Below, piece by piece: positions 5,213 to 39,314 of a DNA stretch of 39,447 nucleotides; within the stretch, counting starts at the first letter, position 1, and each line of letters starts with the position of its first letter. The notes beneath the pieces are model-generated. The model searched no databases. It was not told the origin of the DNA and was given only the letters and a program-made list of their open reading frames with translations. The DNA comes from an uncultured Bacteroidales bacterium (lineage in GTDB: Bacteria > Bacteroidota > Bacteroidia > Bacteroidales > WCHB1-69), in the NCBI GenBank assembly GCA_905233745.1, contig CAJODA010000013.1, forward strand, positions 1-39,447, written 5' to 3'. A program made the translations under genes and the position numbers.

Positions 5213-8200
5213 CTATTTTCTCAACTTCTTGGACAGCATTGTCTTGAGCTTTCTCAATTTGGTAATAGTCGTTGTCTCTTGTCCGTCATCCGTTTTTTCC
5301 AGAATATCCAGCCAGTGTTTGACCGTTTCATAATATAGATAGGCCACATCATTGGGATCAGAGGCTTTTCCGGCATATTCGACAGCCGACTGATAGCACT
5401 CTTGGGCCAGCTTGAAGTTGCTCATTTCTTCGGCAATGATTCCTTTGAAGAAATGATTGCGGATGATGTCCGACTCTGTTTCATCTTTGTACTGGTCGTT
5501 GTAAAGTCTAACGAGCATCTCGTTGGATTTGTCCAGCTGCGTCAGGGCTATGCTTTCCCAGCCTGTCTGAGTGCATAGGATGGCGTTGCGGTAGTATTGC
5601 ATGGCGATTTCGTATGTCTGTTGTGCATTATCGTCCGTGTACAGGAACTCCATGATTCGGATTAGCGTGTCACTTGCATCCAGGGCTTTGTCATACCACT
5701 CCTTGCTCAGATTCTCTTCGTGTTCGTACAGTTCACCCATAGTGGAGAAGCATTCAATCAGCGATTTGTAAATCTCAGTCTCGTTGGCCATTCGGAAGTT
5801 TGGAGCAGTGTCTTGGTACATAGTAGTATTGAGAGACAGACACTCCTTGAATTCGTTGATGGCTTGTTGGATGGAGTCAACGCCCTGCCATGCTTTTGCC
5901 AGCTGGAATTTGCGCTGCAGGTAGGAAAGGGAAAGGCCGGTGGTAGGAAGGATTATCCCGTAATCTGTCACGATGTTTTGGCAATAATGCAATTCCTCTT
6001 CAGGGGGGAGTTTGTACCGGAGATACTTGCCCGCATATTCTATGCTTTTGTTCACATAAAAGGTGTCGTATTCAGAGAATTGGTGGAAGTAGTCGGCTAA
6101 ATCCCGCAACGTTTTGGTGTAGCGGACACTGTCCTTTATGTTCCAATAGTAATCCTCCATGACGAACTTGGCCTGCACATACCGTTGCAGCGGCTTGTCA
6201 AAGGGACATGACTCGTAATATTTGACAGACTGTTCCATGAGAGGATACACTTTCTGCTCATTTCCCTTGTTATATTCTATGATGGCTTTTCCCATATACA
6301 TTTCGCCTAAAGAGTGGTAGGTGCTGGTTTCGCCCATCTTGATGGCCTTGAGGAAGAACTTTTCGGCTTTCTTATAGCATTTCTCTGCGGTGGCCGCATC
6401 ACCTTTCCCTTTCCAAACGTCGCCTTCATAATAAAAGACATCGCCTTTCATTGCGGTGAAGGCGGCGGCCTGGTCGGCCGGAATCTGGCTCTCGTATATC
6501 AACACCGTGCGGTAGGTGTTTAGCGCCTCGTCGAAATTGCCCTGGTTCAGATAGGCGTCACCCATCTGCAGGAAGTTGCGCAGGAACGGGATCCATTGCG
6601 AATGGTCCTGGACCGTGGCTTTCTGAAACTGCTCGTTGGCCTGTTCGTAATATTGGATGGCTTTCGGATAGTTTTTCTGCTGATAATGCTGTTCGGCCTG
6701 ATAGTTAAGATATTGGGCTTTCCATACTTCAAAGAACTGTCCGGCATGCTGGGCCGACTGCTTCAGCAAGTCGTCCATGAAAAGGTCTGCTTCGGCGGCT
6801 AATTGGTTGTGTTGCCTGTTGTGCGCCTCTTCACTGACGTAGGAGACAAAAGTGAGGTATGTGGAGGTGAAGATGTCAGGGTACAGCGAGTTGGCAGCAG
6901 TGTAGGCCTCTTTGAACGGGCGGTAGGAACGCAGTATGGCTGACTCTTCCTGGCCGGTGTCCAGATCGATGCCCAGTACCCGGGACTTGGTCACGATGTT
7001 CTCCACGACGAAGATTTCCGGATATTTTTGAACCAGAATGTCGTCAAGAGCAGACAGGTCGCGCACAGCAGCATCCCACAGTGAATCCGAGTTGTCAAGG
7101 ATGTCAATGTATTGATTGGTCCATGCGGCGTACTGCAACTGCAAGAAGAGGTTCTCCGGCTCCATTTCATAGTTCTCCTTGGCGGCTTGCCGGACGTCGG
7201 CGGCTACCTTCAACCGGATGGAGTCTATTCTGTAAGAGAAGTTAGGAGATAACATTTTTAACATCCTGGAGTAGATTCTGATCATCCGCTGGTTTTGCGC
7301 TTTCTTGGAAAGGCTGTAGGCTCCCATCCACTGTTTATATAATGAGAGAGAGCTGTCAATGGACTGGTTGGCGCTGAGTGTGTCGGAAAGATATGTGTGT
7401 ACGAGGGTCTGGATTAAGTAGTTCCAAGCCAGTTCGTCCATGAAGTCGTAACTGGGATAGCGGCGGTAGTTGTCCCGGATCATCTGGTTCTGCCGGCTGA
7501 ATCCAATACGGAGCGAATCATCGTCAATTCCGAAGAATTTCTGTGGAAGAGGATGAAAGACATATTCTTCAGATGGCAGGTGCGGGTTCGTTATTTCCTT
7601 ACGGGCGATGGCTTCCGCTTCATCGAAACGTTCCTCATTGCTGAGGGCGATGATGTAGTTTGTTGTGGAATTGATGGAATAATGCTGCTCGTAGAGCGTT
7701 TTCTGATATTCCAGAACCGACAGAGTGTCCTGAGTGGCGAGATTCAGGTCACGAAGAGTGAGGAAGAAGGCGATGCGATGCGATGCAGGTTGTCTAATGA
7801 GGTGTCACCCTCACGGATTTGGGCTTTGGCTTCGGCCACGGCCCGGTTTATGTCCCCGCTTCGCAGAATTTCCGTTATGCCCTCTTGTGTTTCGGGTGGG
7901 AAGGAGAAAAGCATGGACGGAAGGGTGTTGATGGCATCGGAATATGCATCGTCGACCAGTTGGTAGTAGCTTTCCGCAGCATAGCCCATGAGTCGTTGGG
8001 CGTATTCCTTGTCCATGTCGGGGTGTGTGCTAAGGGAGTCGTTGTGGGCGAGCATCGCTTGTGCGGTGGCCTGGTAGGCAAAGTTGAAGTACTGGTTGAA
8101 GAGATTGTGGACATCAGTGTCGTAATCGGACTTCTTGATCATGTACAGTCGGAGGGTGTCGCGGCTTTGGAAATACTGGTTCCGGGCATCGTAGCTTATC

Positions 8201-8463
8201 CGTCCGATGTAAACGTAGTTATCCAGAGTCCATCGGTCGCGGGGAATGAAGTCGCCCTTGCGCTCGACGGGGAGATTGAGTATGGCCACACCTTTTGCGT
8301 TGGAGGTGATAGTCTGCCCATAATAGGTGCACGTGGCGCCTTTGAGCGGCTTGTCGGTGGGGAACTCCATGATTTTGAATATCTGCCGAACCTGTTGCGC
8401 GGATGTAATTAGACAACAGATAGTTAGCAGGATAGTTAATAGAAGGGTGATTGTTTTTTTCAT
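5213..8463 (-). CDS. Secreted TPR-repeat protein, frameshifted between two ORFs (7744..8511 and 5213..7483)
   Basis: N-terminal ORF (signal peptide MKKTITLLLTILLTICCLITSAQ, start 8463) runs into the TPR ORF if one 5-bp unit is removed from the (CGATG)3 repeat at 7771-7786: ...DNLHRIAFFLTLRDLNLATQDTLSVLEYQKTLYEQ... 3251 nt minus 5 = 1082 codons. Confidence 0.8.
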
Positions 8464-12752: not shown

Positions 12753-12859
12753 AGTCGATGATTATCGAAATTCAGAATTCAAAGTTCAAAATTCAAAGTT
12801 CCCCATGTACCTCATGTGCCAACTTCACCCCATTCACCCCATGTACCTAAATAAAAGAA

Positions 12860-17639: not shown

Positions 17640-17850
17640 GGGTGAAGTTGGTAAAAGGGGTAAAATGGGTGAATGGGGTGAAAGGTGAAATGGGTGAATG
17701 AGGTGAAATGGGTGAAAGGGGTGAATGAGGTGAATGAGGTGAATGAGGTGAAAGGGGTGAATGAGGTGAAAGGGGTGAAAGGGGTGAATGAGGTGAATGG
17801 GGTGAATGGGGTGAATGGGGTGGAGTGGGTGGAGTGGGGTAGATTAGGTG
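17640..17850. repeat. Degenerate ~9-bp tandem repeat tract (GGTGAATGA / GGTGAAAGG / GGTGAATGG)
   Basis: About 20 successive units; reads [16 protein letters not shown]... in one frame. Confidence 0.9.
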
Positions 17851-20042: not shown

Positions 20043-20147
20043 AATGGTAAAATGGGTGAATGGGGTAAAGTGGGTGAAATAGGTGAAGTAGATAAATATC
20101 TTCTTTTATCTTGAATCGCTAATCTTTCATCGTTTCTCGTTCATCGC

Positions 20148-32203: not shown

Positions 32204-34165
32204 GTGATGAAACTGAGTGTTATCATAGTCAACTATAATGTGGAACACTTTTTGGAGCAAGCGTTGAACTCCGTTTTCAAGGCCCTCCGGAATGTGGATG
32301 GGGAGGTGTTTGTGGTGGACAACAACTCCGCTGACGGTTCGTTGGCCATGATGGCGTCCAAGTTTCCTCAAGTGAAGGTTATCGCCAATAAGGACAATGT
32401 GGGTTTTGCGAAAGCCAACAACCAGGCTATCCGTTTGTCCCAAGGCGAATATGTACTGCTGCTGAACCCTGACACTGTGGTGGAGGAGGATACCTTCGAG
32501 AAGTGCATTCGCTTTATGGATGAGACCCCTGATGCGGGCGGCCTGGGTGTGAAGATGGTTAACGGCAAGGGCGAATTCCTGCCCGAATCGAAACGCGGTA
32601 TCCCGCTTCCTTCGGTGGCCTTCTATAAGCTGTTCGGCTTGTCCAAACTGTTTCCCCACTCCCGGAAATTCGGCTCCTACCACCTCACTTATCTCAGTAA
32701 CGATGAAATCCATTCCGTAGAAGTGCTCGCCGGAGCCTTCATGATGCTGCGCAAAAGCGTGCTGGACGAGATTGGACTGCTGGATGAGGACTACTTTATG
32801 TATGGTGAGGATATAGACCTTTCGTACCGTATCCTCAAAGGCGGATATAAGAACTATTATTTCCCCGAAACCCGGATTATCCACTACAAGGGCGAAAGTA
32901 CCAAGACGGGAAGCCTGAACTATGTGCATGTCTTCTATAAGGCTATGCAGATATTTGCCAGGAAGCATTTCTCCCAAAAGAACGCCAAGATATATAACGC
33001 GCTCATCAACTGCGCGATTTGGTTCCGGGCATCGCTGGCTGCCCTGAAGCGCATTTTCAGCACACTGCTGTTGCCGCTAATTGACTTCATCTTCATATAT
33101 GCCGGCATCTTTGTGCTGTCACGTTACTGGGACCTTAATATACTGGCTTCACGTCACAGCTTCTTCCCCAAGTCATACTATTATCTGGTCATACCTGCAT
33201 ATATCCTGGTTTGGCTGGTCTCCATTGCCTGCTGCAAAGGATACCGGAAACCCATAAGGCTCGCCAACGTGAACAAAGGCATCTTGATCGGCACGGTGCT
33301 CATCCTGCTGGTCTATGCTTTGCTGCCGGAAACATTGCGCTTCTCTCGTGCAGTTGTGCTGCTAGGTAGCATGTGGACCGTCATCATTGTGAACCTTATA
33401 CGCTATGTTATTGGCCGGTTGCATATCAAAGGCACGGCTCTTGCCGGGGAGGACCGCCGTCGGGTAGCCGTTATTGGCGCCCCGGACGAGGCACGCCGCG
33501 TGCTTGACATGATGCGGATGACAGATGCGAAGTGCGAATTCTCAGGCATTATAACACTGGAGGGCCAGTCCGATGTCACCTCGCCATATATTGGCTGCGT
33601 AGACCATGTTTCGGACCTTATTCCGCTCTATCACCTCAACGAGATTGTGTTCTGTGCCCGGGACCTCTCTTCCGAACAGATTATAGACTGGATGGGACGC
33701 CTCCAATCGTTTCAGGTGGAGTATAAGATTGCACCGGAAAACAGCGCCGCGGTTATCGGCAGCAATTCTATTTTCTCTTCCGATGACATGTACACCATTC
33801 CAGTGCATTCCATCCTGCAAAAGGAAAACCGGCGCAGCAAGCGGGCTTTTGATCTTTGCAGCTCTTTGGTTTTGTTGCTGCTGTTGCCGGTGGATATCTG
33901 GTTTGTGAACGGGAAATGCGGTTTTGTCCGCAATATTTTCCAAGTGCTTGCCGGCAAGAAGAGCTGGGTGGGCTGTCGGTTGCAGGAGTACCCACTGCTG
34001 CGCCCCGGAGTGCTTCACCCTGTCGATGCTTTCAGCAGCCACACCTTCTCTGAAGAAATGGTTGCCCTGGCCGAACGTTTATATACCCAAGACTATAAAG
34101 TGAAAGTGGATGTGATGACGATGACGAAGGGATTCCGATTGCTTGGACGGAACGATGAACGATGA
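32204..34165 (+). CDS. GT2 glycosyltransferase with C-terminal membrane/sugar-transferase-like region
   Basis: LSVIIVNYNVEHFLEQALNSV, LLLNPDTVVEEDTFEKCIRFMD; TM helices; C-terminal KRAFDLCSSLVLLLLLPV...GKKSWVGCRLQEYPLLRPGVL resembling a bacterial sugar transferase. Confidence 0.87.
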   Translation: MMKLSVIIVNYNVEHFLEQALNSVFKALRNVDGEVFVVDNNSADGSLAMMASKFPQVKVIANKDNVGFAKANNQAIRLSQGEYVLLLNPDTVVEEDTFEKCIRFMDETPDAGGLGVKMVNGKGEFLPESKRGIPLPSVAFYKLFGLSKLFPHSRKFGSYHLTYLSNDEIHSVEVLAGAFMMLRKSVLDEIGLLDEDYFMYGEDIDLSYRILKGGYKNYYFPETRIIHYKGESTKTGSLNYVHVFYKAMQIFARKHFSQKNAKIYNALINCAIWFRASLAALKRIFSTLLLPLIDFIFIYAGIFVLSRYWDLNILASRHSFFPKSYYYLVIPAYILVWLVSIACCKGYRKPIRLANVNKGILIGTVLILLVYALLPETLRFSRAVVLLGSMWTVIIVNLIRYVIGRLHIKGTALAGEDRRRVAVIGAPDEARRVLDMMRMTDAKCEFSGIITLEGQSDVTSPYIGCVDHVSDLIPLYHLNEIVFCARDLSSEQIIDWMGRLQSFQVEYKIAPENSAAVIGSNSIFSSDDMYTIPVHSILQKENRRSKRAFDLCSSLVLLLLLPVDIWFVNGKCGFVRNIFQVLAGKKSWVGCRLQEYPLLRPGVLHPVDAFSSHTFSEEMVALAERLYTQDYKVKVDVMTMTKGFRLLGRNDER

Positions 34166-34185
34166 ACGATGAACGATGAACGGGG
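34148..34185. repeat. 7-bp tandem repeat (AACGATG)4 plus AACGGGG
   Basis: ggaacgatgaacgatgaacgatgaacgatgaacgggg; contains the stop codon of the GT2 gene. Confidence 0.85.
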
Positions 34186-34255
34186 AACGACATTCGCTAA
34201 TCGCTCCTCGGTACTCGCTAAACGATATAAGTACGAACATTTTAACTGCAAAACT

Positions 34256-36540: not shown

Positions 36541-37194
36541 ATGTCGGGGAATATCATATTGATTGTTTTTGTTGTGGTTGCCTTGCTCCTGCCGCGGATT
36601 CCGGTGGTGGGCAAGTTCTTCAATATCATCAACACAGGGTTGCACGAGTTGGGACATGCTCTGACGGCGTTGTTTGTGGGCGGGGAGGTGCATAAGATTG
36701 AGCTTTTTAAAGACACATCGGGCACCACGGTGACGCAGACCAAGCATAAGTGGCAGGCTGTTTTGGTGTCGTTGGCGGGTTACCCGTTTGCCGCTTCTGT
36801 GGCGTGGCTGGCCTTTTATCTCGTACAGAACGGAGGATCAACAGGGTTGTTGGCAGGTCTGTCCGTGCTGTTTGTGGTTATGCTGGTAATGTGGATACGC
36901 AATTGGTATGGTGCCTTGTGGGTGCTTCTGTTCTGTGCCATTAACGTTTTCCTGATTTACTATGACAATGCTGAGTTCATCCGATACACTGCCATGTTTT
37001 ATGCCGTGATGATACTCACGGAATCTGTGGTGTCCTCGGTCGTCTTGGTGGTGTTATCATTTAAGGATTCGTCGCGCGCGGGGGATGCCACCAATTTGGA
37101 GAAAATCACGCATGTTCCGGCTGCAATATGGAGCCTCCTGTTTCTGGCGTACACCTTATGGGTGGTGTATCGGGTAGTGGTGATGGTGATGTGA
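36541..37194 (+). CDS. M50-like integral membrane metalloprotease
   Basis: NTGLHELGHALTALFVGGEVHKIELF (HExxH) in a multi-TM protein; start MSGNIIL at 36541, because the upstream 36445 extension is repeat-encoded. Confidence 0.75.
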   Translation: MSGNIILIVFVVVALLLPRIPVVGKFFNIINTGLHELGHALTALFVGGEVHKIELFKDTSGTTVTQTKHKWQAVLVSLAGYPFAASVAWLAFYLVQNGGSTGLLAGLSVLFVVMLVMWIRNWYGALWVLLFCAINVFLIYYDNAEFIRYTAMFYAVMILTESVVSSVVLVVLSFKDSSRAGDATNLEKITHVPAAIWSLLFLAYTLWVVYRVVVMVM

Positions 37195-37245
37195 AGGGAG
37201 AAGGGTGAACGGTGAAAGGTGAACGGTGAACGGTGAAGGGTGAAT

Positions 37246-37936: not shown

Positions 37937-39314
37937 ATGAAAAAGATTGTTTGTTTTTTGCTCATGACCATCATTGTCATGGCATCGGTTTTAGCACAGA
38001 CCGTCACACTGACGTTTACCGCACAGGATGCGGGCAGCCATTATGTGCAGCTTAATCGCGTTGTTATATCAAATCTGACCAAGAACTGGCAGGAAACCAT
38101 TTGTTGGCCCGATACGGTTTTGGTTATGCAGAACGGCGTGGGCGTTGTCAACTATAAAGAAGAAGTTGGTTTTTCGCTGTCTCAGAACAATCCAAACCCA
38201 TTCAGCACCAGCACCGAGGTGTGTCTGACGGTGGTGGAGGATGGCAGTGTGCGTTTGCAGATTGCGGATGCGAACGGTCGCATGGTGGAGGCGCGGAATC
38301 TCGTTGACCCGCGCCCCGGCACGCACCAGTTCCGCATATCCCTCGCTACCGCAGGCACCTATGTGGTGTCGGCTAGCCAGAACGGGAAAACGTCTTCTAT
38401 CAAAATGGTGTGCAACGGGGGAGGTGGAACCATATCTCGGCGAGAAGAATGCCATCACATACGTGTTGAAATCGAATACAACAAACCCGTTTGATTTCGG
38501 CGATATGATGGAGTATGTTGGGTATGCAACGATTAATGGCATGGAAGCGGAGAGCGAGTATATCACGCAGGCACAAGACTCCTCTCAGGCGTTTGTGATG
38601 CAGTTTGCCGAGAATCAGGTATCATTTCAAGACGGCCAGCCATGTCCTGGTGTTTCCACTGTGACGGACTGGGATGGTAATACCTACAATACGGTTCAGA
38701 TTGGCAACCAGTGCTGGATGAAGGAGAATTTGAGGACTACGCACTACGCCGATGGCACCAGTATCGTACTGGGTACCAGCTATAGTGACACTATTGCATA
38801 CCGCTATGACTACACCTCTTCAGATATTCCGCTTGAGCAGCGGGGTTACCTATACAACTGGCCCGCCGTGATGCATGGTATGAGCAGCAGTAGTTCCAAC
38901 CCCTCCATGGTGCAAGGCATCTGTCCCAATGGCTGGCACGTGCCGAGTGATGCGGAATGGACACAACTGACCAACTATGTGGGTAGCAACAGCCAATATC
39001 TGTGCGACAATAACAATTCATACATAGCTAAGTCATTAGCCGACACCACAGGGTGGTATGCTAGCCCATATACATGTGATGTGGGGAACAACCAAAGTAC
39101 CAACAACGCTACAGGCTTTAGTGCGTTGCCTGCGGGCAACTATGACGATATTGGTTACTGCAATTCCGGTCACTATGCCTACTTTTGGGGCTCTTCCGAC
39201 TTCTACAGTAGTTCGGGTGCTTACAGCTGTTTTTTCGGCCACGATTACGCCAATGTGATCTGGGGTGGCAGCAGTAAAGGCGATGGCTTTTCCGTTCGTT
39301 GCCTTCGCGATTAA
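37937..39314 (+). pseudogene. FISUMP-domain surface protein with internal T9SS-CTD-like module, frameshifted at a G5 tract
   Basis: ORF 37937-38494 (MKKIVCFLLMTIIVMASVLAQ...NNPNPFSTSTEVCL...GTYVVSASQNGKTSSIKMV) joins the frame of ORF 38241-39314 (EPYLGEKNAITYVLKSN...VTDWDGNTYNTVQIGNQCWMKENLRTTHYADGTSI...GFSVRCLRD) if one G is removed near 38417-38421; 1377 nt = 458 aa plus stop. Confidence 0.82.

Follow-up and report, generated by a model that had tools for sequence, protein, structure and literature searches.

The occurrence of a short pentanucleotide repeat at the point where a gene is interrupted raises the question of whether the repeat acts as an on/off switch or marks an ordinary mutation. 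We examined such a case in the genome of an uncultured Bacteroidales bacterium, in which the window (the whole stretch of DNA analysed here, 39,447 nucleotides) contains open reading frames (ORFs) of 239 and 756 aa on the minus strand in different frames. A sequence-only reading had described the two ORFs as one secreted TPR gene split at a GCATC repeat, and had proposed that the repeat is a phase-variable switch.

Reading frames at the repeat tract

The pentanucleotide tract CGATGCGATGCGATG occurred once in the window (7771-7785, plus strand), where 0.01 occurrences were expected from window shuffles. The full perfect period-5 run was 17 nt long, corresponding to 3.4 units, with GCATC on the coding strand; it lay inside the interval 7744-7810 that had been assigned to it, but spanned only part of that interval (Table 1). 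The minus-strand reading from the ATG at 8463 runs through ... GACAACCTGCATCGCATCGCATCGCCTTCTTCC ..., which holds the 17-nt run, and ends as ...LHRIASPSSSLFVT*. The other (third) frame opens just before the repeat (HLIRQPASHRIAFFLTLRDLN...) and holds 863 codons without interruption until the stop at 5213-5215; only around the repeat do the two frames overlap. The gene span is 3251 nt (8463-5213+1), and the removal of one 5-nt unit leaves 3246 nt, or 1082 codons including the stop; the earlier length arithmetic, which had this total divisible by 3, is therefore correct. As would be expected of a simple-sequence-repeat phase-variable gene, the unit length is not a multiple of 3 and the copy number sets the frame. 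The first ATG, GTG or TTG of the downstream ORF, at 7483, does lie downstream of the repeat as stated previously, but at a distance of ~95 codons instead of ~80.

Table 1. Features of the split TPR gene and their positions in the window.
Feature	Position	Strand	Evidence
N-terminal ORF of 239 aa with an apparent signal peptide and an N-terminal domain; final 9 residues out of frame, after the repeat	7744..8463	-	
Perfect tract of 3.4 pentanucleotide units (coding strand, GCATC); frame broken by the extra unit	7770..7786	-	
Premature TGA stop codon downstream of the repeat	7744..7746	-	
C-terminal part in the other frame, with TPR repeats; ~851 codons, FFLTLRDLN up to the stop	5213..7769	-	Pfam, orthologues
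756-aa mechanically called ORF within the C-terminal part, whose ATG corresponds to an internal methionine	5213..7483	-	

The N-terminal part starts with an apparent signal peptide, as judged by eye (MKKTITLLLTILLTICCLITSAQQ...), and searches of Pfam, NCBIfam and PDB with this 239-aa part returned zero matches. The C-terminal part belongs to the TPR proteins, as Pfam TPR models scored above their curated cut-offs on the 756-aa ORF (TPR_2, E 9e-15 and 53.9 bits with a cut-off of 27; TPR_1, 44.9 with a cut-off of 27.8); further matches were to TPR_12, TPR_16, TPR_8 and TPR_14. The predicted truncated product retains the signal peptide and the N-terminal domain and is without any TPRs. Translation of the C-terminal part is predicted to be very unlikely, because 261 nt separate the stop of the 239-aa ORF from the next in-frame start, the ATG of the 756-aa ORF.

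Orthologues in the genus

The 239-aa part was used as a query against 40 genomes of the genus, and 30 of them, including the window's own genome, showed a match. There were 31 matching places including the window's own; one other was a 43-aa fragment, and the 29 orthologues were aligned. No stop was found inside the match at any of the orthologous places besides the window's own, and 28 of the 29 aligned orthologues were single-frame ORFs of ~1070 aa or more, the exception being G023, where a divergent frame of 711 aa matched only weakly (E 1.5e-4). The four nearest orthologues (G010, G013, G005 and G025) each consisted of one ORF of 1082-1085 aa from the ATG. The N-terminal part was 64-53% identical to the start of these ORFs. 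For the C-terminal part, identity was 60-64% across 851 codons, and in the orthologues this part shares the frame of their N-terminal part. These nearest-relative ORFs thus matched both window halves in two different frames, which met at 7774-7780. In particular, the junction codons of the orthologues (CTG CAG CGC ATC GCC TTT TAC CTG in G010 and CTG CAA/CAG CGC ATA GCC TAC TAC CTG in G013, G005 and G025) aligned without gaps to the reading that lacks one unit, and the GCATC repeat was absent from this site in all 29 aligned orthologues.

Because at least 28 same-genus orthologues are unbroken across this point, the 239-aa and 756-aa ORFs are, as judged from the alignment, halves of one gene split by a net 5-nt gain. 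An alignment of orthologues had been proposed as a check on the locus, and this result, together with the ORF coordinates, confirmed the frame split at the GCATC repeat, its junction and the presence of one secreted TPR gene cut in two. A search of 104 family genomes for the DNA of a closer relative gave a best match of 70% identity, a contig scan aimed at another genome of this species yielded a distant TPR match and nothing closer, and the 20-nt junction pattern was absent from viral contigs. The adjoining gcvT showed 99% protein identity to that of G013, compared with 55-62% for the TPR gene. We dismissed this uneven divergence, since gcvT shows 92-99% identity across the genus and is simply a conserved gene.

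Age of the break and origin of the tract

The dN/dS values calculated by the Nei-Gojobori method against the four nearest orthologues were 0.26-0.36 for the N-terminal part and 0.19-0.25 for the C-terminal part, values similar to the 0.13-0.27 obtained for pairs of intact orthologues; the synonymous sites were near saturation, so these values are a rough guide only. The C-terminal frame had zero stops in 863 codons, and no second lesion was found in 851 codons. Because both halves still look constrained and a second lesion is missing, the break would be recent, or switched, or a consensus error. The intact relatives, the one lesion and the constrained remainder correspond to those expected of a recent frameshift null allele.

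At the site of the break, the closest orthologue has the codons CTG CAG CGC ATC GCC (L-Q-R-I-A), of which the R-I-A codons account for CGCATCGC. Two steps would therefore have been required for the tract on this lineage, first a change of CAG to CAT and afterwards the duplication of 5 bp. A change of CAG to CAT before the R-I-A codons would yield GCATCGCATC without any slippage; in this lineage, CTG CAG CGC ATC GCC would have become CTG CAT CGC ATC GC, which contains two tandem GCATC units by chance. Replication slippage may then have duplicated one 5-bp unit and shifted the frame, after which translation would stop 9 codons later. The frame break and the junction are read directly from the DNA and the alignment, and it is the slippage and the order of events that we infer. 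The slipped-strand configuration described by the sequence-only reading fits this origin, as a slipped-strand duplication would be the simplest account of a copy-number change of the 5-bp unit.

Repeat tracts in the same genome

Tracts were counted in 1,188,100 bases (1.19 Mb) of stretches from the same genome, and the expectation was obtained from four second-order Markov simulations. Only one pentanucleotide tract of at least three units was observed, the one in the TPR gene, while the simulations gave 3, 0, 2 and 3. Two-unit pentanucleotide runs were also not in excess (871 observed versus 939-1010 simulated). Thus, over this 1.19 Mb, the pentanucleotide class does not exceed chance, and with one tract observed versus 0-3 simulated, the genome shows no sign that pentanucleotide tracts serve as switches. 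A three-unit pentanucleotide tract somewhere in the genome is unremarkable by chance; that the sole tract falls exactly at the frame break is not chance, and is the expected trace of a 5-bp duplication.

Heptanucleotide runs were in excess (5 observed versus 0), and period-7 and period-9 runs are generally over-represented in this genome. The longest perfect period-7 run in the 1.19 Mb is a GAACGAT tract at 34150-34190 of the window (33 nt perfect, with a unit that is not a multiple of 3), which covers both the stop codon that ends an ORF for a family 2 glycosyltransferase (32204-34165) and, at 34169, the first ATG of an ORF for a Glu/Gln-tRNA synthetase. By its length, this tract is a better candidate for slippage, although it touches gene ends only. 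Additionally, intergenic tandem repeats were observed at 17640-17840, 20046-20091, 37191-37244 and 12768-12842 of the window, with related units that include GGTGAATGG, GGTGAAATG and GTGAACG.

Other frame breaks in the genome

Comparison of the ORFs of relatives with the 1.19 Mb revealed 112 homologues that were whole in a single frame, some of which may be shadow ORFs. Besides the TPR gene, one conserved gene was clearly broken and one was probably broken. The former, near 2878 of contig C25 (G000, locus L120), corresponds to a conserved 734-aa gene of relatives and is split by a frameshift that is not at a tandem repeat. The latter lies in the window (37937-38494 and 38241-39314), with a probable junction near 38430-38450, where a GGGGG run is present; its N-terminal ORF contains a signal peptide and a Por_Secre_tail-like stretch and is followed by a Fib_succ_major domain in another frame, and a 649-aa ORF of a relative (L135) matches both parts in one frame. 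Two further split candidates, C8 near 2080 and C1 near 42550, were discarded because inspection showed them to be shadow ORFs or matches to intergenic DNA. Given the 112 whole homologues and the one clear and one probable break, ordinary indels, whether real or derived from the consensus, hit about 1-2% of conserved genes.

Interpretation of the split gene

We consider it likely that the locus carries a recent 5-bp tandem duplication and represents a loss-of-function allele of a single-copy secreted TPR gene (~1081 aa). Because at least 28 of the 29 orthologues are unbroken and none has the repeat, the break resembles an ordinary mutation of recent origin and not a switch that has evolved to turn the gene on and off. 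The change from two to three units is reversible in principle, and the same picture would be produced by the 'off' phase of a switch or by a consensus error.

If the tract were a phase-variable switch, units would be gained and lost frequently, the population would contain on and off cells, and the assembly would have caught an off cell. The perfect tract, the unit length not divisible by 3, the secreted product and the undamaged, constrained remainder of the gene are in line with such a switch; in Haemophilus influenzae, the (GACGA)4 tract of hsdM offers a precedent and a two- versus three-unit LPS tract a possible one (PMC2651432). However, the tract is only 17 nt long, none of the 29 orthologues carries it, whereas related strains or species would be expected to keep the tract of a phase-variable gene, and its class is not in excess in this genome. 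It also lies amid a conserved coding motif, so that the required codons and one CAG-to-CAT change explain the two-unit state, and the assembly contains further frameshifted genes whose breaks do not coincide with such repeats. These observations speak against the switch proposed by the sequence-only reading, which we regard as unlikely. To our knowledge, slippage-based switching is little described in this bacterial group, and it is distinctly unlikely that a pentanucleotide tract of two to three units forms a species-specific on/off switch of the secreted TPR protein. If the unit numbers varied within the species, the site would count as a new, minor contingency locus.

A consensus or assembly error, in which the living gene would be intact and the extra 5 nt artefactual, is quite unlikely. 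The source is a 130-contig assembly, the C-terminal part shows no decay, and at least one other conserved gene (in C25) and possibly the window gene near 38440 are also frame-broken away from such repeats, all of which would fit an error. In contrast, the 112 sampled homologues are whole in one frame, and the assembly is therefore not generally error-ridden; moreover, a perfect 5-nt duplication in a 17-nt tract is a typical product of slippage and is easily spanned by short reads. Programmed -1 frameshifting by the ribosome, or a gene pair that is stably split, either of which would keep the C-terminal part in use, was rejected as highly improbable: a -1 shift would likewise join the two frames, which overlap around the repeat, but no slippery heptamer was evident by eye in the overlap, the frame transition was conserved in none of the orthologues, and a start codon in the second frame appears only 261 nt past the stop.

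With the recent duplication as the preferred reading, the 756-aa and 239-aa ORFs should be recorded in annotation as one frameshifted gene copy, encoding a protein whose gene is intact in most genomes of the genus.

Comparison with known systems

In Neisseria, the opa genes contain CTCTT repeats and switch at ~1e-3 per cell per generation (PMC3745409). In Haemophilus influenzae, rapid switching occurs at the four-unit GACGA tract of hsdM, and the hmg locus contains a putative LPS flippase gene with a two- versus three-unit pentanucleotide tract that is consistent with on and off states (PMC2651432); three units alone therefore do not exclude a switch. The TPR gene resembles opa and hsdM in that a 5-bp unit lies in the coding region and the gain or loss of one unit disrupts the frame, and, like opa, it codes for a secreted protein, although the opa repeats are located in the leader peptide sequence, unlike those of the TPR gene. 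It differs from both contingency loci in that its tract is absent in relatives and has only 3.4 units. A survey of prokaryotic frame transitions treated singletons as indel mutations or sequencing errors (PMC3711429). The TPR gene is similar to these singletons, as its break is present in one genome only, with intact orthologues and without a conserved motif at the break, and its tested features show no difference from those of a slippage-generated frameshift pseudogene or null allele (PMC3711429).
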